Source: Massilia cavernae | Lineage (GTDB): Bacteria; Pseudomonadota; Gammaproteobacteria; Burkholderiales; Burkholderiaceae_D | Length of the DNA stretch: 64,000 nucleotides | Assembly: GCF_003590855.1 (NCBI RefSeq) | Contig: NZ_QYUP01000118.1 | Span: forward strand, 1-64,000 | Direction of reading: 5' to 3' | In this document: piece by piece, positions 8,389 through 19,511 of the stretch | Layout: each line of letters begins with the position of its first letter | Numbering within the stretch: the first letter of the stretch is position 1 | The notes under the pieces: model-generated | Databases searched by the model: none | What the model was told of the DNA's origin: nothing | The model's input: the letters and a program-made list of their open reading frames with translations, nothing else | Translations under genes and position numbers: made by a program

Positions 8389-8691
8389 GCGCAGCAGGTA
8401 TCCCCGCGCCAGGTGCTCCCCCGCGCCAGTTCCGGCATTGTCGATCAGGTAGGGTATGTTTGCAATCGACCTGCCTATGTATTCCTCCATGCCGGCGGCG
8501 GGCGCCGCAAGCACGGACAGGGTACCCAGCACGACGCGCGCCCAGGTTGGGTTGTCGGGATTCTGCGCGTCGTTGATGGCGCCTTCGTACTGCTGCAACA
8601 AGACGCCATGCGGTATGAACGCGCGGTAGTTAGGGCCGCTCACCGGAGGCAAGGGGGTCGCTTCCGGCCTGCGCGTTCTGGCGCAGGGCAA
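8206..8691 (-). pseudogene. Chimeric ORF: foreign N-part fused to a duplicated ZIP transporter 3' end
   Basis: The last ~60 codons (8206-8388; ASGLIPYVLVFASSGFLYIAVSDLM...) match the end of the intact ZIP gene at 19850-20032 at roughly 94 percent nucleotide identity. The first ~100 residues (PNYRAFIPHGVLLQQYEG..., LAAPAAGMEEYIGRSIANIPYL) are unrelated to ZIP proteins. They look like a piece of another protein, perhaps the hydrophobic stretch before the toxin domain of an Rhs-type protein; that part is a guess. No ribosome binding site is obvious. I read this as two gene remnants joined at the left edge of the island, not a working gene. Confidence 0.65.
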
Positions 8692-8829
8692 ATTTCTTCG
8701 CAGGCCCCTGCCTCTGGTGTCTCGCGCGCCCTTCCTCCTAACTAGCTGGAAAAAGCGCCTCCCTACACATGCCCAACGCTTGGATGATGCGCCCTCCTCA
8801 TGCGATGGCTGCCAGTTTGTTGAGGCGTT

Positions 8830-11157
8830 CTACAGATTGAAACGCACATCGATCCGCACCTTGCGCGGCGGCGCCGGGTTGGCGAAGCCGCCACTGACCC
8901 ATTCGGAGTTGTAGGCCTTGTCCGTGGCGTTCTCGACCGCGGCCGACAGCGACCACTTGCCTTTGGCGTCCTCCAGCACGGCGCGCAGGTTCAGCAGCCA
9001 CAAGGCTGAGCGGGCCGCCGAGTTCTCGGTGTCCCAGTATTGCTTGCCTTTGTAGACCAGATCCGAGCGCAGCATGATGCGCAGCGCACCGCTGAGCGGG
9101 AAACGGTATTGCACACCGGTGTTACCGGTCACGCGCGGCACGTAGGGCGCCCAATTGCCCACCACCGAGGGATCGACGCGGTATTCATCGATCACGCTGC
9201 GGGTCACGCCCAGGCCGATGCCGGCGTCCAGCCCGCGCGCCAGGCTGGCAGTGGCCTCCAGTTCGCCGCCGGTCAGATGCACCTTGTCCAGGCCCGCCAT
9301 CACCTGCGAGCTGAGGGCGGTGATGAATACGAAGTATGGCGAATTGCGCACTTCGGTATCGAACAGCGCCGCGTTCAGGCGCAGCTTGCCGTCCAGTAGC
9401 GTGGTCTTGTAGCCCAGTTCCGCCGACTTGGTCAGCTCCGCAGGCATCATTTCGCGCACGCCCTTGATTTTGGTGGCCTCGGCCAGCTCCGCCACACCGC
9501 TCTGATTGAACAGGCCGGACCGGAAACCCTTGCCCCAGGAGGCGTAGGCCACCGAACCGTCAGCCGCCTTGTGGCGCAACGACACCTTGGGCTGCCAAGC
9601 GCTGAAGGTGGCCTCGCGCCCGCACGCTGCCGATGCCGCCACCGTGCAGCCGGCAGGCACGCCAGTCGACAGGTCACCGGAGAACTGACGCGGATCGATC
9701 GTCTGCTTGCGGCGGTCGCGGTCATAGCGTAGAGCCAGCGACGCTTCGACGCGCTGCGTCAAGTCGTAGTCGAGATTGCCGAAGGCGGCGGTGGCGCGAT
9801 TGTCGTTGTGGTCCGCCAGCCACAGCTTGGTCGGGTTGGCGCTGCCGGCCGGCGCGGGATCGTAGCTTAGGTAAGTGATGTCCTGGCCGTTGTCGATACC
9901 GTTGGTGGACGAGACAAACTTGTTGGCGTTCATCGCGTACACCCCGCCCATCCAGCGCAGGCCCGGATCGCTCGGCGAGGTCAGGCGCAGCTCCAGCGCC
10001 GTGTTGCGGGCGGCGATGTACTGGGTCTGGGTGCCATCCACCTCGAACGGGAAGCCCCAGCCCGCCACCGTGCCCACGTCCACGTTGCGCGAAGAGGTGT
10101 ACGGGTATTCGTCGCCTTCGATGTATTCCTTCATGCGGTCGTGGCTGGCGGTGGCGGCCAGCGTGGCGAAGTCCAGCGCGTACTCAGCCTTCAACGCCAC
10201 GTTGTCGAGCGAGCGCGTGTTGCGGCCGGGGTTGGTGGTGCAGATGCGCCGCACCACGCTGTCCGGGTTGGCGCGGCTGGCGTCCTCCACCGTGGCGCTG
10301 CCGCCGCTCAGGTCGGCGCTGCAATTGGGACCGATGTGCTGCGGCTGATAGACGTAGTTGAGCGCGCCGGCGCGGTCGCGCACTACGCCGAAACGGGCAT
10401 CGAGCTGCAGCTTGTCGCCGGCGATCCAGCGCAGGTCGCCGCGCAGCGCGTCGTTGCGGTAGGGATCGGCCTTGGCGTGCAGGTAGCCGTTTTCCAGGTA
10501 GCCGCCAACGTTCGTGTAGTTGCCGCCGATGCGGTACAGCAGCTTGTCGTCGACGATGGCGCCGCCGACGCTGCCCTGCACGCCGCGCCGCTGGCCATTG
10601 CCGGCGGTCGCCTGCACGTAGCCGCGCGTGGTGTTGGTCGGCGCCTTGGTCGTGATCAGGATCGCGCCGCCCGAGGCGTTGCGGCCGTACAGCGCGCCCT
10701 GCGGCCCGCGCAGCACTTCGATGGACTGGATGTCGAACAGCTCCTGCGTGAACTGCTGGGCACTGGTCTGTGTGACGCCGTCCACCACCACCGCCACCGG
10801 GGCTTCGCCATTGCGAACCTGGGTCAGGCCGCGCACCGTCATGAACGACGTGCCCACCGATTGCGATTCCGACAGCGAGACATTGGGCGTCAGCGCCACG
10901 AAGTCACCCGGCTTGCTGATGCCGGCATCCTCGATGGCCTTGGCGGAGAAGGCCTTGACCGACATCGGCACGCCCTGCTGTGTTTCATCGCGGCCGCGCG
11001 CGCGCACCACAACCTGTTCCATGGCGCCTTCCGGCGCCGGCGCGACGGACTCCCCCGCCGCTGGCGCCTGGGTCTGGGCCGCGGCGGCGCTGGACCAGGC
11101 CAGGGCCACGGCGATACTGATGAGTGTGGGGCGTGAGACGAAATTCTGGCAAGGCAT
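8830..11157 (-). CDS. TonB-dependent outer-membrane receptor
   Basis: Outer-membrane channel that imports a ligand with energy from TonB. The start at ATG 11157 has GGAG 6 nt upstream and gives 775 residues with a signal peptide (...SIAVALAWSSAAAAQTQA). A TonB-box-like stretch (MEQVVVRAR) comes next. Then follow the plug domain (PMSVKAFSAKAIEDAGI..., IEVLRGPQGALYGRNASGGAILITTK) and a 22-strand-type barrel ending in aromatic F-N-L. It sits at the end of the hydantoinase island but has its own promoter and operator copy. It probably brings the island's substrate across the outer membrane, which is unusual because hydantoins and nucleobases normally use porins. Confidence 0.92.
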   Translation of the reverse strand: MPCQNFVSRPTLISIAVALAWSSAAAAQTQAPAAGESVAPAPEGAMEQVVVRARGRDETQQGVPMSVKAFSAKAIEDAGISKPGDFVALTPNVSLSESQSVGTSFMTVRGLTQVRNGEAPVAVVVDGVTQTSAQQFTQELFDIQSIEVLRGPQGALYGRNASGGAILITTKAPTNTTRGYVQATAGNGQRRGVQGSVGGAIVDDKLLYRIGGNYTNVGGYLENGYLHAKADPYRNDALRGDLRWIAGDKLQLDARFGVVRDRAGALNYVYQPQHIGPNCSADLSGGSATVEDASRANPDSVVRRICTTNPGRNTRSLDNVALKAEYALDFATLAATASHDRMKEYIEGDEYPYTSSRNVDVGTVAGWGFPFEVDGTQTQYIAARNTALELRLTSPSDPGLRWMGGVYAMNANKFVSSTNGIDNGQDITYLSYDPAPAGSANPTKLWLADHNDNRATAAFGNLDYDLTQRVEASLALRYDRDRRKQTIDPRQFSGDLSTGVPAGCTVAASAACGREATFSAWQPKVSLRHKAADGSVAYASWGKGFRSGLFNQSGVAELAEATKIKGVREMMPAELTKSAELGYKTTLLDGKLRLNAALFDTEVRNSPYFVFITALSSQVMAGLDKVHLTGGELEATASLARGLDAGIGLGVTRSVIDEYRVDPSVVGNWAPYVPRVTGNTGVQYRFPLSGALRIMLRSDLVYKGKQYWDTENSAARSALWLLNLRAVLEDAKGKWSLSAAVENATDKAYNSEWVSGGFANPAPPRKVRIDVRFNL

Positions 11158-11223
11158 GGAATTCTCCGTTGTGCTTGATGTGGGAAAGTCGCTGTGGAGC
11201 CGGGCTTGGCGCCGTTTCGATCC

Positions 11224-11308
11224 ACTATAGGTAGGCACCGCAACGCGGGCAACGGCGGCGGCGGGTAGTTGGCTGCAATGGCTGGCGCCCCGCTACCCGG
11301 CCGGGTAG
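11224..11308 (-). promoter_or_regulatory. Receptor gene promoter with MalT-like operator
   Basis: Read on the minus strand: a perfect 16-bp palindrome CTACCCGGCCGGGTAG (11293-11308), 24 bp, a CTACCC half-site (11263-11268), 10 bp, -35 TTGCCC (11247-11252), 17 bp, -10 TATAGT (11224-11229). The same order with exactly the same spacings precedes the permease operon at 19387-19471. The neighbouring LuxR/MalT-type regulator is the obvious candidate to bind it. This is inference from position and repetition. Confidence 0.75.
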
Positions 11309-11310
11309 AT

Positions 11311-13989
11311 TCATGGCACGGCGTCGATATAGCCGTTCTGCAGCGCCACCGCGATGGCAGCGGTGCGCGTGCCGACGCCCAGCTTGAGGAAGATCTGCTT
11401 GAGATGGAACTTGACCGTGTTTTCCGACACGCCCAGCGCATTGGCCACCATCTTGTTGCCCTGCCCGGCCGCCACCAGCGCCAGCACCTGCTCCTCCTTG
11501 GCGCTGAGCGGACTCCGGTGGCGTGGCGGATGCACTTGCCAGCCACGCAGGCGCGTCACCAGCGCGGCCAGGCCCGGCCAGGCGGCGTAGCGGCCGTCCG
11601 GGTCCAGCGATTGCAGGCGCGGCAGCAGGCCCGCGCCGATCTCCAGCAGCAGGCCGTGCAGGTTCTGGGCCCAGACTGACTGCATCCAGTGGCGGAAGCC
11701 TTCCTGCGCCGCCGGGCTGTCGGCGTCACGCCGGCCCAGTGCCCACGCCAGCCCTTCCAGCCGCCAGGCGCACAGCCGCAGGCCGGCGCCGTCCAGCGCC
11801 TGCGCTCCTCGCCGCAACCCGGCCGCCGCCGCTTCGGACGCGCCCTGCGCGGCGGCCAGGCGCCCCAGTGCCAGGCTCACCGCCTCGTATTCGCGCCAGT
11901 TATCGGTCACGCCGCGCGGCGGCGTCCAATCGACCAGGCCGGCCGCGCGGGCTTCCTGCTGGGCCTGCGCCACGTGGCTGCTTTGCACCAGCAGGTCGAT
12001 GCGCCAGGCTTGCACCAGCCGCCCCAGGCGCGGCAATTGGCGCTGGCGCGCGTCCAGCGCCGACTGGTCCAGCTGGCGCAGCGCGGCGGCCAGGCCATCC
12101 AGCCGTAGCGCGCTGCGCCACAAGATTTCGGCGCTGGTGGCGCACACTTCCAGCCAGCCGTCGGTCTGGTGCAGCGGCTCCAGAGCCGCCGTGGCCCAGG
12201 GCCAGGCCTCGCTCCAGGCGCCCGACCAGTAGAGGTGCTGGGCGCGGTAGCAGCCCACCATCGACTTCAGCGAGCTTTCGGTGCCGAAGTTGGCCTCGGC
12301 CAGCGCCAGCGCGGTGTCGATCTGGCTGCGCGCCATGCGCACGTTGCCGGACAGCGCCTCGGCCTGCGCCTGGTTCAGCAGCACATACGCCTCGCCCAGC
12401 GCGCAATGCGCCAGCTGCATCTGAACCCGCGCCTCCTGCGCCTGGCGCACCGCGTCCGGCAAGTGCGCGTTGGCCAGCGCCGCCATCGCGCGTTCGTTCA
12501 GCACGCAGGCGCGGCCCAGGATGCTCAGGCCGTCCGGCAGCGGCGCGGCGCACAGCGTCGCTTCGCGCGGACGGTCGAAGTAGCCATAGACCATGAACTC
12601 GATGACCAGGTAGTCGCTCCGCAGTTGCGGCGTGGCGGCCAGCCCCGCTTCTGCCAGCCGCAGCATCTCGAACGCCAGCGCCTCATTGCCCAGCTTCGCG
12701 TTCAGGTAGGCCTGCATCAGCAGCAGCGCCGGTTCGCTGCGGCGTTGCAATTCGTCGAATTCGTTCAGCAGGCTTTGCGTGTAGGCGATGCCCTTGCGCA
12801 GCACCAGTTCCCAGCCACCGGCCGCGCGCACCAGCGACACCGCCAAGGCCTGGTCGCCGGCACGTTGCGCGTGGCGCACCGCCAGCAGGCAGTCGGATTG
12901 CTTGGCCAGCCAGTGCGCGGCGGCGCGGTGCAGCGTGCGCGCCCGCGCCGGATCGAGGCGGGCGCGCAGGAAGTCGGCCAGCAGCGGGTGGTAGCGGTGC
13001 CAGCGGCGTTGCGCGTCCAGCGGGACCAGCAAGGCGCGGTAGGAGGCCAGCGCCAGCAGGTGAGCAGCGCTGTCGCCGCGGCCGCGCACCTCGTCTGCCA
13101 TTTCGACACTGAAGCGTTCCAGCAGCGAGGTTTCGATCAGGAATTCGCGGCAGTCGGGCGGCAGGGCTTCGAGCACCTGCTCGGTCAGGTAGCCGGCGAT
13201 TTCGCCGGTATGGCCGGACAGTTGTTCCAGCCCGGACAGCGCGGCGCTGTCGCGCGCCAGCCAAAGCTTGGCAAGTTGCACCGCCACCGCCCAGCCCTCG
13301 GTGCGCTCGTGCACCAGCGCGGCGGCATCTCCGGCTGCATCGCCCAGGATGGCGCTGGTTTCCGCACCGCTCAGCACCAGGTCGGCCGCGTCAATGCGGT
13401 ACAGCAGCCCGCGCGCCTGCAGGGTGGCGACCGGCAGGCGCGGGCGACCCCGGCTGGCCAGCACGAGCTGCAGCCAGTGGCTGGCCCGCTCGATCAGCAT
13501 CAGCACCGCCGCATCGACCTCCGCGCTGCTGGCGCGGTGGTAGTCGTCGAGAATCAGCGTTACGCGCCGCCCGCCCTGCCCCAGCGCGGCCACGATGATA
13601 GCCAGCGTGTGCTGCGGGTTGGCGTCCAGCGCGTGCGACCGGGCCAGCGGCGCCAGCGACTCTAGCGGCACCCCGGCGCGCTCCAGCGCCAGCACCAGAT
13701 AGGCGAGGAAACGGTGCGGCGCGCGGTCGTCCTCGTCCAGCGACAGCCAGGCCACCGGCACAGGCGGGGTTTGCCCAGCCAAGCGGTCGCGCCATTGCGT
13801 CAACAGCGTGGTCTTGCCGAAGCCGGGCGGCGCCTCCAGCATCACCAATGGCTTGGCGGCCTGCTGTGCCAGGCGTTCCAGCAAGGCGGTGCGCGGCACG
13901 GCGTCCACCTCGGAACTGGGCGGCGCCACCTTCCCGATCCAGATCCAGTTCGCTTCCGCCGCAGCGGCCAGGTCGGGCGTCTCGCTCAT
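11311..13989 (-). CDS. MalT-like ATP-dependent LuxR-family (LAL) transcriptional regulator
   Basis: Large signal-transduction regulator of 892 residues. The N-terminal NTPase has Walker A APPGFGKTT (about 53-61) and Walker B TLILDDYH (about 145). A long helical, TPR-like sensor region fills the middle. The C-terminal LuxR helix-turn-helix (about 828-892) reads LSAKEEQVLALVAAGQGNKMVANALGVSENTVKFHL. Members such as MalT activate transcription when bound to an inducer and ATP. It is last in the permease-hyuA-hyuB-cupin operon, 6 bp after the cupin, and its stop lies 2 bp from the operator palindrome of the receptor gene. It probably activates both island promoters, including its own. Confidence 0.92.
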   Translation of the reverse strand: MSETPDLAAAAEANWIWIGKVAPPSSEVDAVPRTALLERLAQQAAKPLVMLEAPPGFGKTTLLTQWRDRLAGQTPPVPVAWLSLDEDDRAPHRFLAYLVLALERAGVPLESLAPLARSHALDANPQHTLAIIVAALGQGGRRVTLILDDYHRASSAEVDAAVLMLIERASHWLQLVLASRGRPRLPVATLQARGLLYRIDAADLVLSGAETSAILGDAAGDAAALVHERTEGWAVAVQLAKLWLARDSAALSGLEQLSGHTGEIAGYLTEQVLEALPPDCREFLIETSLLERFSVEMADEVRGRGDSAAHLLALASYRALLVPLDAQRRWHRYHPLLADFLRARLDPARARTLHRAAAHWLAKQSDCLLAVRHAQRAGDQALAVSLVRAAGGWELVLRKGIAYTQSLLNEFDELQRRSEPALLLMQAYLNAKLGNEALAFEMLRLAEAGLAATPQLRSDYLVIEFMVYGYFDRPREATLCAAPLPDGLSILGRACVLNERAMAALANAHLPDAVRQAQEARVQMQLAHCALGEAYVLLNQAQAEALSGNVRMARSQIDTALALAEANFGTESSLKSMVGCYRAQHLYWSGAWSEAWPWATAALEPLHQTDGWLEVCATSAEILWRSALRLDGLAAALRQLDQSALDARQRQLPRLGRLVQAWRIDLLVQSSHVAQAQQEARAAGLVDWTPPRGVTDNWREYEAVSLALGRLAAAQGASEAAAAGLRRGAQALDGAGLRLCAWRLEGLAWALGRRDADSPAAQEGFRHWMQSVWAQNLHGLLLEIGAGLLPRLQSLDPDGRYAAWPGLAALVTRLRGWQVHPPRHRSPLSAKEEQVLALVAAGQGNKMVANALGVSENTVKFHLKQIFLKLGVGTRTAAIAVALQNGYIDAVP

Positions 13990-13995
13990 GCTTGC

Positions 13996-14331
13996 TTATC
14001 CGTCGAATGCGACCAGCGGGTCCATCAATACAAAGAAAATTTCGCTGTCTTCCAGCGCCGTGGTCGCATGCGGCTGGTCCGGGTTCTCCACCACGATGTC
14101 GCCGGCAGCGATCTCGTAGCTGCCGGACGCGGTATCGACCCGCAGCCGCCCGCTGACCACATAATCGACCTCGCTGGCGCAGCCCCGCCGGAAACCGGAC
14201 GGCGGACTGCGCACGCCGGCCTCGATGCGCGCCAGGCCGGTCAGCACCTTGCGCACGCCACCGACTTCCAGCGGCGGCGCGGTGGCGACTTGATAAGGGC
14301 CGCTCAGCGGCGGGAAACGGTGCACAGTCAT
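13996..14331 (-). CDS. Small cupin-domain protein
   Basis: A single-domain cupin of 111 residues (CASEVDYVVSGRLRVDTASGSYEIAAGDIVVENPDQPHATT). The second motif G(D)IVVENPDQPH is clear. The first motif has an acidic residue but lacks the usual HxH pair (it reads GCASEVDYVVSG), so metal binding may be incomplete. It has a strong ribosome binding site (GGAGGAG) and lies between hyuB and the regulator. It could be a ligand-binding accessory, an isomerase or a regulatory cupin; the sequence does not decide. Confidence 0.75.
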   Translation of the reverse strand: MTVHRFPPLSGPYQVATAPPLEVGGVRKVLTGLARIEAGVRSPPSGFRRGCASEVDYVVSGRLRVDTASGSYEIAAGDIVVENPDQPHATTALEDSEIFFVLMDPLVAFDG

Positions 14332-14367
14332 ATCAGCTCCTCCAAGAGTATAGCGGAGGCTTGCGGT

Positions 14368-16002
14368 TCAGCCCAGCAAGCCATTCTGTTGATCCTCGGC
14401 CAGCGCCTGCGGCGCGCGCTGCGCCGGGTCGCCCCAGCCGCCGCCATGCGCGGTGACCAGGCGCAGCAGGTCGCCCTGCCCCAGCGGCACCCGGTTGGCG
14501 CGCGCGAAACGCTGGCGCGAGCCGTCCGGGCGCACCACCTCGGCGTAGCTGCAGGAGCCGTCGGCGCCGCCGTCCATGCCCCAGGGCGGGGTCTTGCCGC
14601 GCCCGAAGAAGGTCGAGACCCAGGCGCGCGGCCCCAGGATGCGGTATTCCAGCGCCACGCCGCGTCCGCCTCGCCAGCGCCCGGCGCCGCCCGCGTCGCC
14701 GTGGAAACCATAGCGCTCGATGCGCACGTCGTAGCAACGTTCCGCGATCTCGATGGGGATGTTGCTGGTCTCGCCGTTGCCGACGCAGAACTGTCCGTTC
14801 TCGCCGTCCTTGCCCTCGCCCGCGCCCCAGCCGCCCACCAGCGGCTGCACTAGCAGGAATTCCTTGCCGCTGTCGCGCGCGTGGCCGTTCAACACCATCG
14901 AACAGACCGAGCCGAGCTGGCCGGCGATCAGGCGGTCGCTCAGCACCGGCGCCAGCGCGCGGCGGATGACGTCGGCCGCCGTCACCATCGCCTCGAAATA
15001 GGCGGACACCGGCGCCGGGCGTTCGGCGGTGCAGATGGTGCCGGGCGGGCAGATCACCTCGATGGCGCGGAAGCAGCCGGCGCTGGCCGGCACGCCCGGC
15101 CGCACCACGCCCATGAATACTTCGCGCACCGCCGATTCCAGGCCGCAGCGGGTGTTGTTAACCGGGCCGGGCGCCTGCGCGCTGGAACCGGTGAAGTCGG
15201 CCACGAAACGCTCCGCCGTGATGGTAACGCGCACCTTGATGGTGAACGGGCCATTGCCCAGGCCGTCCTCGTCGATCACGTCCTCGGCCTCGTACACCCC
15301 GTGCGGCAGGCGCGCCAGCGCGGCGCGCGTCATCGCAGCGCCGTAGTCGAGCAGGTGCGTCATGGTATCTTCCACGCCGTCGCGGCCATACTTCTCCACC
15401 AGGGCCAGCAGGCGACGCTCGCCCACCCGCAGCGCGGCGGTGCAGGCGTGCAGGTCGCCCAGCGTCATTTCCGGCAGGCGCACATTGGCAGCGATCAGGT
15501 CCTGCAAGCCATGGTTGACCCGCCCCTGGTCGACGATGCGCACAGCCGGGAATTGCAGGCCCTCCTGGTACACCTCGGTGGCGTCGGCGCTGAAGCTGCC
15601 GGGGTCTTTGCCGCCCACCTCCGTCCAGTGCGCCTTGTTGGCGGTCCAGGCCAGCAAGCGGCCGTCATGGAACACCGGGGCCACCATTGACACGTCGGAC
15701 AAATGGGTACCGCCGCCCGCGTATGGGTCATTGGTGATGAACACGTCGCCGGGGTGGATGCCGTCCGCGCCGAACTTGTCCAGTATGCTGCGCACGGCGC
15801 CGTCCAGCGTGCCGATGAAGCCGGGGATGCCGTTGCCCTGCGAGATCAGGTTGCCGGCCGCGTCGGTGATGCCGATGCCGTAGTCGAGCGCCTCGTAGAT
15901 GATGGGGCTCATGCTGGTGCGCTGCATGGCGGCGAACATTTCCGCGCCAATGGCGGTGAGCGCGTTCTTGATCACCTCGCGCGTGAATGGCGTGTGCTGC
16001 AT
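14368..16002 (-). CDS. hyuB: Hydantoinase B / 5-oxoprolinase-type beta subunit
   Basis: Partner subunit of an ATP-dependent hydrolase or carboxylase of the HyuA/HyuB, oxoprolinase and acetophenone carboxylase family. The 544-residue product has the family opening (ALTAIGAEMFAAMQRTSMSPIIYEALDYGIGITDAAGNLIS), then GDVFITNDPYAGGGTHLSDVSMVAPVFHDGRLLAWTANKAHWTEVGG, and a C-terminal GDAGGAGRWRGGRGVALEYRI segment. It starts 9 bp after hyuA with a GGAGCACCC site. With HyuA it should open a cyclic amide ring at the cost of ATP. N-methylhydantoin, 5-oxoproline or a lactam are all possible. Confidence 0.9.
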   Translation of the reverse strand: MQHTPFTREVIKNALTAIGAEMFAAMQRTSMSPIIYEALDYGIGITDAAGNLISQGNGIPGFIGTLDGAVRSILDKFGADGIHPGDVFITNDPYAGGGTHLSDVSMVAPVFHDGRLLAWTANKAHWTEVGGKDPGSFSADATEVYQEGLQFPAVRIVDQGRVNHGLQDLIAANVRLPEMTLGDLHACTAALRVGERRLLALVEKYGRDGVEDTMTHLLDYGAAMTRAALARLPHGVYEAEDVIDEDGLGNGPFTIKVRVTITAERFVADFTGSSAQAPGPVNNTRCGLESAVREVFMGVVRPGVPASAGCFRAIEVICPPGTICTAERPAPVSAYFEAMVTAADVIRRALAPVLSDRLIAGQLGSVCSMVLNGHARDSGKEFLLVQPLVGGWGAGEGKDGENGQFCVGNGETSNIPIEIAERCYDVRIERYGFHGDAGGAGRWRGGRGVALEYRILGPRAWVSTFFGRGKTPPWGMDGGADGSCSYAEVVRPDGSRQRFARANRVPLGQGDLLRLVTAHGGGWGDPAQRAPQALAEDQQNGLLG

Positions 16003-16011
16003 GGGTGCTCC

Positions 16012-18057
16012 TTAAAGCTGCGGTAAGTGGATGTGCAGGCCGCCGAAGCGGTCGATTTCGACCCGCTCGCCGCGCCCGACCACGGTGGTGGTGGTGGCTT
16101 CTTCGATGATGGCCGGGCCGTGCAGCTCCATGCCCGGCAGCAGGCGCGCGCGCGCATACACCGGCGTGGTTTCCGGCTGGCCGGGCAACAGTTCGACCAT
16201 GCGCTCGCCGGCCAGGGCTGCGATGGCGGAAGGCCCAACGGCCGCCGGCAGGGGCGCCATCGGCGACTTGGGCACGGCGCCGAAACCGGCCAGGTGCAGG
16301 CCCACCACCTCCACCGGCGCATCCAGGCGGAAGGCGTAGGCCTGCTCGTGGATGCGGTGAAAGCGTTCCAGCGCCTCCGCCGCGTCCGCGCCCTGTTCCG
16401 GCAGCGCGACCTTGACCGCGTGCTCCTGGCCGACGTAACGGGCATCGACGTAACGCTCGAAGCGCAGCTGGCCGGCCGCGAAACCATCCTGCCGGAACGC
16501 GGTCTCGGCTTCCTCGCGCAGGCCTTCGAACGCCCGTTCCAGCGCCGCCATGCCGTCCTGCGCCAGCGGCTGCACGTGGGTGCGGATCGCGTCGCGGCGC
16601 ACGTCCAGCATCAGCATGCCCCAGGCCGAGAACACGCCCGCATACGGCGGCACGATCACTTTCGGGATGCCCAGTTCGGCCGCCAGCGCCGTGGCGTGCA
16701 GCGCGCCGCCGCCGCCGAAGGCCATCAGCGCGAATTCGCGTGGATCGTGGCCCCGGTTGACCGACACCAGCTTCAGTGCGTTGACCATGTTGGCGTTGGC
16801 GATCTGCAGCACGCCGTGCGCCACCGCCATGCCGTCCAGCTCCAGGCGCTGGCCGATCGTGTCGAACGCTGCCCGCACCGCGTCCAAGTCCGGCATGATG
16901 GTCCCGCCGGCGAAGCCGTCCGGATTGATGCGGCCGGTAGCCAGGTTGGCGTCGGTGGTGGTGGGCGCCTTGCCGCCGCGTCCATAGGCCACCGGTCCCG
17001 GCATGGCGCCGGCGCTTTCCGGCCCAACGCGCAGGCTGCCGGCTTCGTCCAGCCAGGCGATACTGCCACCGCCGTTGCCAATTTCGACGATATCGACCAC
17101 CGGCGTCATGATCGGGTAGCCGGCGCTGGTCGGGCCGCGTTCGATCACATAGTCGTTGGTAATGGTGACGCGGCCCTGGTCGATCAGCGAGCACTTGGCG
17201 GTGGTGCCGCCGATGTCGAGCGCAATCAACTGCGACTCGCCGATCAGCGCACCGTACACCTGGGCGCCAAGGATGCCGCTGACCGGGCCGGATTCCACCA
17301 GGCTGATCGGGTCGGCGCGCACGGCGGCCAGCGGCGCGATGCCGCCATTCGATTTCATGATAAAGGGCGCGCCTGGCAGGCCGCGCTGTTTCAGCCGCTT
17401 TCCCAACTGGTCCAAATAATTGCTGGTGGACGGCATCACGTAGGCGGACAGCACCGCCGTGCTGCAACGCTCGTATTCGCGCCAGACCCGGCTCACTTCG
17501 TGCGAGGCCACCACCGCCACTTCCGGCCAATGCGCCAGCACGGCCGTCTTTAGCGCTAATTCATGGGCCGGATTGCGGTAGGCGTGCAGCAGGCAGATTG
17601 CCACCGCGCCCACGCCTTCCACGCGCAGCCGGTCCAGCGTGTCCGCCAGTCCCTCCAGCGACAGCGGCACCACCACCTCGCCGCGATGGTCGATGCGCTC
17701 GCGCACTTCGCAACGCAGGTGGCGCGGCACGAAGGGGCGCGGCTTGCTGTAGCGCGGATTGAAGATGTCTGGTGTGTTGCCGCGCGCGATCTCCAGCACG
17801 TCGCGGAAGCCGGCGGTCGTTAGCAGCGCGGTCTTCACGCCCTTGCGCTCGGTCAGCGTGTTGATGACGACGGTCGAACCGTGGGCGAAAAAGTCCACCT
17901 CGCGCAGGTCGATGCCCGCCTTGTCGACGGCATCCAGCAAGCCCAGGTGGAAATGAGGTGGCGTGGTGTCGGCCTTCACGGCATGCACCTGCCCCTGCTT
18001 CAGGTAAACCAGATCGGTGAAAGTGCCGCCGATATCGGTGGCGATGCGGATGGACAT
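16012..18057 (-). CDS. hyuA: Hydantoinase A / 5-oxoprolinase-type ATP-binding subunit
   Basis: ATP-binding subunit of the HyuAB-type enzyme. The 681-residue product shows the two ASKHA-fold phosphate-binding signatures: TDIGGTFTDLVY at 7-18 and ALDIGGTTAKCSLI near 280. Also present are HGSTVVINTLTERKG and the conserved AFGGGGALHA segment near 450, then the C-terminal acetone-carboxylase/HyuA region. It begins 3 bp after the permease stop, so permease, HyuA and HyuB are made together. This layout supports uptake followed directly by ring opening. It acts in the cytosol. Confidence 0.9.
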   Translation of the reverse strand: MSIRIATDIGGTFTDLVYLKQGQVHAVKADTTPPHFHLGLLDAVDKAGIDLREVDFFAHGSTVVINTLTERKGVKTALLTTAGFRDVLEIARGNTPDIFNPRYSKPRPFVPRHLRCEVRERIDHRGEVVVPLSLEGLADTLDRLRVEGVGAVAICLLHAYRNPAHELALKTAVLAHWPEVAVVASHEVSRVWREYERCSTAVLSAYVMPSTSNYLDQLGKRLKQRGLPGAPFIMKSNGGIAPLAAVRADPISLVESGPVSGILGAQVYGALIGESQLIALDIGGTTAKCSLIDQGRVTITNDYVIERGPTSAGYPIMTPVVDIVEIGNGGGSIAWLDEAGSLRVGPESAGAMPGPVAYGRGGKAPTTTDANLATGRINPDGFAGGTIMPDLDAVRAAFDTIGQRLELDGMAVAHGVLQIANANMVNALKLVSVNRGHDPREFALMAFGGGGALHATALAAELGIPKVIVPPYAGVFSAWGMLMLDVRRDAIRTHVQPLAQDGMAALERAFEGLREEAETAFRQDGFAAGQLRFERYVDARYVGQEHAVKVALPEQGADAAEALERFHRIHEQAYAFRLDAPVEVVGLHLAGFGAVPKSPMAPLPAAVGPSAIAALAGERMVELLPGQPETTPVYARARLLPGMELHGPAIIEEATTTTVVGRGERVEIDRFGGLHIHLPQL

Positions 18058-18060
18058 GAG

Positions 18061-19353
18061 CTACTCCGGGATGGTGGATGCGGCCGGGCTGGCCGGGCGT
18101 CCCCGGGTACAGCGGTGCAGCAGTGGATAGATGATGGCCGCCGCCAGCATGGCGTCGACCGTTGGAATGGCGGTGATCTGGACACTGCCACTGGTGCCGC
18201 ACCAGGCCAGCGCACAGGACAGCGCCCATGCCGACAGCGCGCTCCAGCGCCACGCCGGCAGCGCCGCGATCAGCTTGTCGTCGTAGCGCTGGCCGCGTAG
18301 CAGGAAGAAATCGATCAGATAGATGCTGGCGATGGGCGGAATGAAAACGCTCAGGCCGAAAAGGAATTGTTCGAAATGCCGCATCACGCCCGCCAACGCG
18401 AGCACGGTGCCGGCGACGCTGGCGCCCAGGGTCAGCACCCGGTCGCTGGGGCGGCTGACGGTAGCGAGGGTCAGCGTGGCGGAATAGAGATTGGCTGTGT
18501 TCGTGATCCAGTTGGAGAACAGCAGGATGAACAGGCCGGGCAGCACTACGCCGAAATGCGCCAGGTTCTCCGCGATGCCATTCTGGCCGGTCAGGATGGC
18601 CGGCAAGCCGCCCGCCATCAGCACTAGCGGGAAGCCGAAGGCGATCCCGGCACTGGCCGCCAGGCAGCCGCGCAGGCCATGGGCATAGCGGGTGACGTCC
18701 GGCATCAGCACAGGCATCATGATGACCATGCCGATGGTGCTGGAAACCGCCTGGACCATGCCGCCGCCCTGCCCCGCGTAATGCGCCAGCTGGCCGGGTT
18801 CGCCCGCGCCGAGCGCCAGCGCAAGAATGTACAGAACGAAGATCGCCATCACCGGCACGGAAAAGCCGGACAGGCGCTCCAGTCCGCGCATGCCCACCAG
18901 CGCTGCCAGCGTCATCAGCACACTGCCAGCGATGGCGCACAGCGCGGGACTAACGGCGAGATACCCGCGCAGCGAACTGCTGGCGGCCTGGCCGAAGGCA
19001 TCGATGGTCACGGCGTAGAACCCCACCAGCGTCGCCGCGATGAGCAAATTGACCAGTTTCGCGCCATGGCGGCCGAAAGCGAAGTGCAGCACCATATAGG
19101 TGCTCAGGCGGCTGCGCGCCCCCACCAGGCCGGTGACGACGGAGATCAGCCCCAGCGCGCCGCACACTGCCAGGAAGATTCCCAGCGCCGCGCCGGTACC
19201 GACGCTCCGCGTGACTTCCGCGCCCAGCCAGAATACCGGCAAGGTGGTGCCGATGCCAAAGGTGATCAGCGCGATGCTCCAGGCCGAAGCCCGTTCGCTA
19301 TCCGGCAGCGCGCGACGCGAATAATTGTCAAAATGCTCAGCTTCCTGGCTCAT
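18061..19353 (-). CDS. NCS1-family (cytosine/purine/hydantoin-type) permease
   Basis: Inner-membrane symporter of 430 residues with about 12 hydrophobic helices. The N-terminal part (NYSRRALPDSERASAWSIALITFGIGTTLPVFWLGAEV) and the core GMVIMMPVLMPDVTRYAH are like CodB and other nucleobase:cation symporter-1 proteins; the hydantoin carrier Mhp1 is in the same superfamily. It is the first gene of the island operon and has the operator-bearing promoter upstream. With HyuA and HyuB next to it, hydantoin or a related N-heterocycle is the likely cargo. Its ribosome binding site is weak. Confidence 0.88.
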   Translation of the reverse strand: MSQEAEHFDNYSRRALPDSERASAWSIALITFGIGTTLPVFWLGAEVTRSVGTGAALGIFLAVCGALGLISVVTGLVGARSRLSTYMVLHFAFGRHGAKLVNLLIAATLVGFYAVTIDAFGQAASSSLRGYLAVSPALCAIAGSVLMTLAALVGMRGLERLSGFSVPVMAIFVLYILALALGAGEPGQLAHYAGQGGGMVQAVSSTIGMVIMMPVLMPDVTRYAHGLRGCLAASAGIAFGFPLVLMAGGLPAILTGQNGIAENLAHFGVVLPGLFILLFSNWITNTANLYSATLTLATVSRPSDRVLTLGASVAGTVLALAGVMRHFEQFLFGLSVFIPPIASIYLIDFFLLRGQRYDDKLIAALPAWRWSALSAWALSCALAWCGTSGSVQITAIPTVDAMLAAAIIYPLLHRCTRGRPASPAASTIPE

Positions 19354-19386
19354 TCATGCATACCTGAACTAATAATGTATGCAGCC

Positions 19387-19471
19387 AGTCTACGGGACCA
19401 GCGTAGCCGGTTCAACATGGCCCAAGGGTAGATTGCGGCGCCGATCCCGCCATACCTACCCGGCCGAGTAG
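19387..19471 (-). promoter_or_regulatory. Permease-hyuAB operon promoter with MalT-like operator
   Basis: Read on the minus strand: palindrome CTACTCGGCCGGGTAG (19456-19471, one mismatch), 24 bp, CTACCC (19426-19431), 10 bp, -35 TTGAAC (19410-19415), 17 bp, -10 TAGACT (19387-19392). All spacings equal those of the receptor promoter at 11224-11308. A further CTACGGGGTAG lies at 19501-19511 and may be an accessory site. Confidence 0.75.
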
Positions 19472-19511
19472 TATAGTGGATCCACAATTTGAGACAGTGA
19501 CTACGGGGTAG

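Follow-up and report, generated by a model that had tools for sequence, protein, structure and literature searches.

We analysed a 64,000-nt stretch of DNA from Massilia cavernae (NZ_QYUP01000118.1, positions 1-64,000; assembly GCF_003590855.1), hereafter called the window, and found that two promoters of a hydantoinase-type gene cluster share one layout. Each site is very probably a composite operator of the LAL (MalT-like) regulator that is encoded between the two promoters, as predicted from sequence comparison. On the minus strand, both promoters consist of a 16-bp dyad, 24 bp, the half-site CTACCC, 10 bp, a TTG hexamer, 17 bp and a TA hexamer. The receptor promoter runs from 11308 to 11224 and that of the permease operon from 19471 to 19387. 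The initial annotation had described the same order of elements with identical spacings, and both were exact when read directly at the two promoters. The elements, all on the minus strand, are as follows.

11293..11308, minus strand: dyad of the receptor promoter, CTACCCGGCCGGGTAG, 16 bp, putative LAL dimer site, beginning 2 bp past the LAL stop codon
11263..11268, minus strand: proximal half-site CTACCC of the receptor promoter, 24 bp downstream of the dyad
11247..11252, minus strand: -35-like hexamer TTGCCC of the receptor promoter, 10 bp past the half-site
11224..11229, minus strand: -10-like hexamer TATAGT of the receptor promoter, 17 bp past the -35
19456..19471, minus strand: dyad of the permease promoter, CTACTCGGCCGGGTAG, 16 bp, read from the sequence, with one symmetry position broken
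19426..19431, minus strand: proximal half-site CTACCC of the permease promoter, 24 bp downstream of the dyad
19410..19415, minus strand: -35-like hexamer TTGAAC of the permease promoter, 10 bp past the half-site
19387..19392, minus strand: -10-like hexamer TAGACT of the permease promoter, 17 bp past the -35

The dyad-24-CTACCC pattern with up to three mismatches matched twice in the window and not once in 100 shuffles. The sequences between the elements were identical at 7/24, 3/10 and 7/17 positions, and the identity of the 24-bp spacers was at the chance level (7 observed; shuffle mean 6.7, P 0.53). The geometry was kept while the intervening sequence differed, as had been claimed, with spacings that have not diverged. 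A shared geometry could also result from the duplication of one promoter and not from selection, and such an event is evident in a second genome of the family, G310, where the hyuA and TonB receptor promoters are clearly duplicates with 17/17 identical positions between -35 and -10. The window promoters, however, showed only chance identity in the 24-bp spacer and little identity in the two shorter ones. Most cross-lineage pairs were likewise at chance, with 2 of 21 pairs exceeding it (P 0.013 and 0.017). Even after an old duplication, selection would be required to hold the spacing constant as the spacer sequence was lost, and we regard duplication as a highly improbable source of the shared layout.

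Two further sequence features were observed at these promoters. An extra CTACCC (19506..19511, minus strand) starts 40 bp upstream of the start of the permease-promoter dyad, the same offset as from the dyad start to the proximal half-site; it has no counterpart at the receptor promoter and possibly arose by chance. In addition, the 11-mer TATAGTGGATC is common to both promoter regions. Its copy at 11219-11229 (minus strand) includes the -10, and the copy at 19472-19482 (plus strand) lies immediately upstream of the dyad, in reverse orientation.

LAL regulators are large proteins that have received little study. The regulator, a member of what has been termed "a poorly studied family" (PMC3282765), has 892 aa and fits the LAL type of about 900 aa with an N-terminal NTPase. 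It contains GFGKTT and LILDDYH, which we take to be the Walker A and Walker B motifs and which were largely conserved in the alignment. Matches to AAA_16 and AAA_22 were weak and under the Pfam cut-offs, and the C-terminal GerE/LuxR helix-turn-helix was found at residues 827-882 (PF00196, 60.6 bits). TPR_MalT was not reported for the window LAL, yet it was over the cut-off in the homologues at loci L008, L021 and L022. The window LAL is a relative of MalT and not MalT itself, because its score against the MalT equivalog PRK04841 (NCBIfam) was 258 bits against a cut-off of 537.

The pattern was rare in the genome of origin (5.44 Mb, 93.65% complete). The window dyad sequence with at most one mismatch occurred at the two promoters and once at C186. 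The latter overlaps listed open reading frames, the half-site geometry was not seen there by eye, and it was taken as a chance match. The general dyad CYACCC-N4-GGGTRG without mismatches was found only at 11293. The composite with up to two mismatches gave the two window promoters and one 2-mismatch match, compared with one match for the reversed control, so a search of this genome assembly at its 93.65% completeness yielded no further convincing operator copy.

We then compared 392 genomes of the family. LAL relatives at E<=1e-60 were present in three of them, namely the genome of origin, G310 (41% identical) and G091 (47%, a partial gene split across two contigs), and all three carried the full pattern. 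With at most three mismatches, the full 85-bp pattern was found twice in the genome of origin, twice in G310, once in G091 and once in G114; the reversed control gave no match in the 392 genomes. The G114 match is the only one among the 389 genomes without the LAL. No relative of seven window proteins (LAL, HyuA, HyuB, TonB receptor, permease and two flanking proteins) was found by tblastn in the 11 kb around it, and it was taken as chance. With one unrelated match in 392 genomes, the motif is not scattered over unrelated promoters. Of the two G310 sites, one precedes hyuA and the other a cupin-like gene downstream of the LAL (Cupin_2 26.6 bits, just below the 27.2 cut-off). A third site in G310, upstream of the TonB receptor gene, has a 25-bp gap; it duplicates the hyuA promoter with one additional base. 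None of 16 other listed genomes of the same genus as M. cavernae has a LAL relative, and for this reason the distribution of the cluster is sporadic. No additional LAL genome was found in the genera of G310 and G091, where 1/62 and 1/5 genomes matched, both already known.

Beyond the family, a class search with the window LAL (369 genomes) found it in two genomes, that of origin and G511. In a phylum search with a profile of five LALs (E<=1e-90), 29 of 378 genomes matched, the genome of origin included, and wide regions were examined for all 29 except G812. Genome G983, from another family (f162), encodes a LAL that is 46% identical to the window LAL, with a dyad-24-CTACCC composite between the LAL gene and hyuA. 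Its genus, g336, was searched by LAL protein alone. The LAL was present in 13 of 378 genomes, of which G983 and G1087 were already known and 11 were new; G1087 is outside the counts, its contig ending at the LAL. All 11 new orthologues had the dyad (at most one mismatch) beside the LAL end, the hexamer TAGCAT 33-34 bp past CTACCC, and HyuA and HyuB next. The gap between dyad and CTACCC was 24 bp in nine of them and 25 bp in two. The motif was thus present at the orthologous loci of the 3/3 LAL-bearing family genomes, of G983 and of the 11/11 new g336 genomes. At locus L152 of G1322 (8567-11180), the LAL match is in two pieces with a break, and the dyad, half-site and -10 are kept beside the last piece.

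Across 18 promoters, the gap between dyad and CTACCC was 24 bp in 15 and 25 bp in 3, where the G091 site and two G310 sites had also been found with a pattern containing the 24-bp gap. Shuffled downstream sequences had CYACCC at 24 or 25 bp in 0.06/18 on average (maximum 3, 5000 rounds). A -10-like hexamer, taken as the best hexamer within a 6-position range, followed CTACCC in 18/18, at 33 bp in 11 and 34 bp in 7. A putative activator half-site near -35, 33-34 bp from the -10, is the arrangement of sigma-70-type class II activator-dependent promoters. We also looked for a second dyad around the -35 and rejected it, as no GGGTRG occurred within 100 bp past the dyad in any of the 18. The claim that the spacings match to the base thus holds for the two window promoters; it does not hold for the orthologues, which have 24 or 25 bp, or for farther relatives, which have other gaps.

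The position of the dyad raises the question of whether it is a terminator or mRNA hairpin of the LAL gene, its likeness at the second promoter being coincidental. The dyad begins 1-34 bp past the stop codon of a whole LAL in 23 of 25 loci (2 bp in the window), the exceptions being L119, where it overlaps the stop, and L152, with its broken LAL frame. In g336, it begins 5-10 bp past the LAL stop codon in 10 of the 11 new orthologues. The window dyads can be folded as RNA hairpins (-16 and -10 kcal/mol), the L030 stretch had a clearly more stable fold than its shuffled versions (z -3.1), and TTTT occurs one base past the dyad in L117, L121 and L125. However, the other three of the four folds had z of about -1, and no dyad among the 25 loci is directly followed by five or more consecutive T. 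Dyads also lie where no LAL gene ends, at 19471 in the window, at L008 19852, at L023 1203 and in the divergent LAL-TonB gaps of L063 and L064. Moreover, a terminator leaves the CTACCC at 24-25 bp and the -10 at a fixed distance unexplained. We consider this explanation extremely improbable.

The operator should be found beside homologous LAL regulators if it belongs to them, and this pairing was counted over 49 loci. Locus L126, with a broken LAL frame, has no row, and the other 48 loci gave 52 LAL genes. The dyad (at most one mismatch) lay within 300 bp of 14 of the 18 LAL genes with the recognition helix T[VI]KFH and of none of the 34 others (Fisher 1.7e-9). After thinning of similar genes, the counts were 10/14 and 0/26 (1.2e-6), and two control patterns gave one match altogether. 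Four T[VI]KFH genes had no counted dyad: the contig ends 1 base past the frame in L062, an exact dyad overlaps the gene end in L119, the dyad of L120 has two mismatches, and L123 has none. LALs with other helices beside remote HyuA-like genes (L022, L029, L066, L071) had no dyad. Adjacent LAL gene pairs with differing recognition helices and without the dyad were observed in four f162 genomes (L072, L073, L074, L090). At L126 (5983-8724; a plasmid of Rhizobium sp. RCAM05350), the LAL frame is split into several fragments and the dyad after it is intact.

These counts also bear on whether the sites belong to another regulator, for example a different LuxR-type protein, with the LAL a mere neighbour. 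First-look counts gave many LAL-like candidates per genome, and the T[VI]KFH helices resemble other GerE domains. Against this, the dyad accompanies this LAL clade in two classes, on both genome contigs and plasmids, and none of the 34 other LAL genes has a dyad at this threshold within 300 bp, including the second LAL of the genome of origin (C192, helix TVRTH). Control by another regulator is therefore very unlikely. The presence of the motif at orthologues and its tracking with the recognition helix support the proposal of the initial annotation that the geometry is a likely binding module of the adjacent LAL, to which the regulator would bind.

More distant relatives were found on Rhizobiaceae plasmids, where LAL-HyuB-HyuA clusters encode LALs with about 28-32% identity across the aligned part; 15 of 75 matching records were examined, from 20 among the matches listed. 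An ABC transporter comes next in the three annotated clusters. Of 10 rows with a dyad (that of L120 with two mismatches), nine were used and L121, nearly the same as L117, was omitted; the dyad directly follows the LAL gene, with CYACCC at 16-17 bp. A TAATCT-like hexamer lies 33-35 bp past CYACCC in 9/9; this -10, chosen as the best hexamer in 31-36 bp, is the weaker part, with a better-scoring hexamer farther down in L117, L118 and L125. The -35 place is held by a half-site-like CTACC or CTATC in 8/9, so that a second, often degenerate half-site mostly occupies this position. In the Chloroflexi relative L007, a dyad with up to two mismatches was not found. At L028 (Novosphingobium sp. EMRT-2), a second dyad with one mismatch was observed at 11021-11036, between DsbA-family and avidin-family genes adjoining the LAL, and the regulon there may therefore include an avidin-like protein.

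The dyad register thus differs by clade, being 24-25 bp in the window family and g336 and 16-17 bp in Rhizobiaceae. Because the distance from the half-site to the -10 is nearly constant in the window family, g336 and Rhizobiaceae and that of the dyad is not, the comparison suggests that the half-site is the anchor facing the polymerase and that the dyad supplies occupancy. We tentatively suggest, as a possibility somewhat short of even, that one LAL clade in two proteobacterial classes may use a two-part operator grammar. In it, the half-site would be locked 33-35 bp upstream of the -10 and the dyad re-registered as a block, the anchor being read rigidly and the dyad flexibly, unlike in a rigid array.

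Several observations weigh against the reading as a LAL operator. The spacing is not rigid, with 25 bp in 3 of the 18 promoters, and TTG is exactly at the -35 place (+10) in just 10; the eight without it fit an activator-dependent promoter. The 18 promoters are not independent, because common descent links the cupin sites of G310 and G091, the duplicated G310 promoters and the sites in g336. The association of helix and dyad is confounded with clade and Hyu linkage. It is also an association of clade, and the helix may not be its cause; besides, the dyad had already been seen in the five rows of profile A2 when the phylum was searched. More distant LALs that share the helix deviate as well. 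In G511 (L021), the dyad is followed by CCACCC at 25 and 46 bp with no -10-like hexamer at the fixed distance. L028 and L063/L064 (G1033/G1118) have a 1-mismatch dyad near the LAL with no half-site at the expected place, and Aminobacter L123 lacks the 6-4-6 dyad, with CCACCC and GGGTAG 8 bp apart instead (by eye).

Some known regulators invite comparison. AlkS is a member of the LAL/MalT family, and the palindrome of PAS-LuxR regulators, which have a GerE-type domain, can be read as 6-4-6. As described in the reports cited here, inducer and ATP cause MalT, the activator of the E. coli maltose regulon, to form multimers, which bind cooperatively to the MalT boxes and recruit polymerase; MalT resembles the present case as a LAL/STAND-type activator with several sites per promoter (PMC4381067, PMC10427625). 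It is reported to bind two decanucleotides in direct repeat (PMC6099782, citing Vidal-Ingigliardi 1991), whereas the window promoters have an inverted 6-4-6 dyad and one half-site, of another sequence, in which only the third half-site is direct to the first. At PalkB, AlkS is described as binding to an inverted repeat that lies upstream of the -35, a likeness by description, and a composite with a separate half-site is not described for PalkB in the passages considered (PMC12740625). TpdR, a LAL regulator that controls a catabolic operon from the tetramethylpyrazine promoter in Rhodococcus jostii TMP1, likewise has repeats that lie at the -35 and upstream of it; its own proposed site consists of 15-bp direct repeats with 13-bp spacing and a consensus unlike CTACCC (PMC6099782). 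PAS-LuxR regulators of the PimM type bind a 16-bp palindrome, CTVGGGAWWTCCCBAG (PMC9774167), but the half-site letters and the sensor domain are other, and the PimM-type dyad is at the -35 itself. Direct repeats (MalT, TpdR) or an inverted repeat (AlkS) in LAL operators and the 16-bp palindrome of PAS-LuxR are thus already known, and the composite of an inverted dyad and a separate half-site beside a LAL appears to be new relative to them. A literature search over titles and the starts of abstracts (motif letters; LAL inverted repeats, MalT boxes, hydantoinase, AlkS), with subscription journals mostly outside its scope, found no description of the operator among the matches listed. Its top match to the motif letters (PMC4349456) concerns another operator.

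The cluster occupies 8830-19353, with all genes on the minus strand.

8830..11157, minus strand: TonB-dependent receptor gene with its own promoter; the listed open reading frame extends to 11238, and the likely start is the in-frame ATG at 11157, preceded by GGAG (read by eye)
11311..13989, minus strand: LAL (MalT-like) regulator, 892 aa, NTPase region and C-terminal GerE helix-turn-helix
13996..14331, minus strand: small cupin-domain open reading frame, 111 aa, between HyuB and LAL (Cupin_2 28.5 bits, cut-off 27.2)
14368..16002, minus strand: hydantoinase B/oxoprolinase-family subunit (HyuB), from domain searches
16012..18057, minus strand: hydantoinase A/oxoprolinase-family subunit (HyuA), from domain searches; the nearest solved sequence is an N-methylhydantoinase
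18061..19353, minus strand: NCS1-type (cytosine/allantoin-family) permease, leading the operon, from domain searches

The HyuA/HyuB family domains PF01968, PF05378 and PF02538 all scored far over their cut-offs, and the substrate-specific NCBIfam equivalogs for the Hyu subunits were all below theirs, the best being caprolactamase. The permease promoter heads a gene run that ends with the LAL, and the run is probably a single operon. The cluster is best read as a predicted ATP-dependent hydantoinase-type uptake and catabolic regulon under the LAL. In G310, two neighbouring HyuA-HyuB pairs were observed (L008 15555-19303, L009 2505-6198), the first flanked by M24 peptidase and Asp/Glu/hydantoin racemase genes.

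We propose that the LAL, like MalT, would oligomerise in the presence of ATP and an inducer, which may be a substrate or product of hydantoin- or lactam-like type. Assuming a start 7 bp past the -10, two GerE DNA-binding domains, which we infer to act as a dimer, would occupy the 16-bp dyad centred near -83, and a further GerE domain the single CTACCC beside the -35, centred near -48. The proximal domain may touch RNA polymerase near -35 in a class II-like contact. The dyad would raise occupancy and may also contact the alpha subunit within the 24-bp gap. One promoter would serve the TonB receptor gene, and the other the permease, HyuA, HyuB, the cupin protein and the LAL if the run is one operon, in which case the LAL within its own operon would form a self-reinforcing circuit.

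Recognition-helix class, operator and target genes are paired in many genomes, and the spacing varies naturally between 24, 25, 16 and 17 bp. This pairing and these variants make a MalT-like oligomer arrangement on the promoter directly testable. The operator may be used to search for the regulon, and it would provide a ready inducible promoter as soon as the inducer for the hydantoinase-type pathway has been identified.

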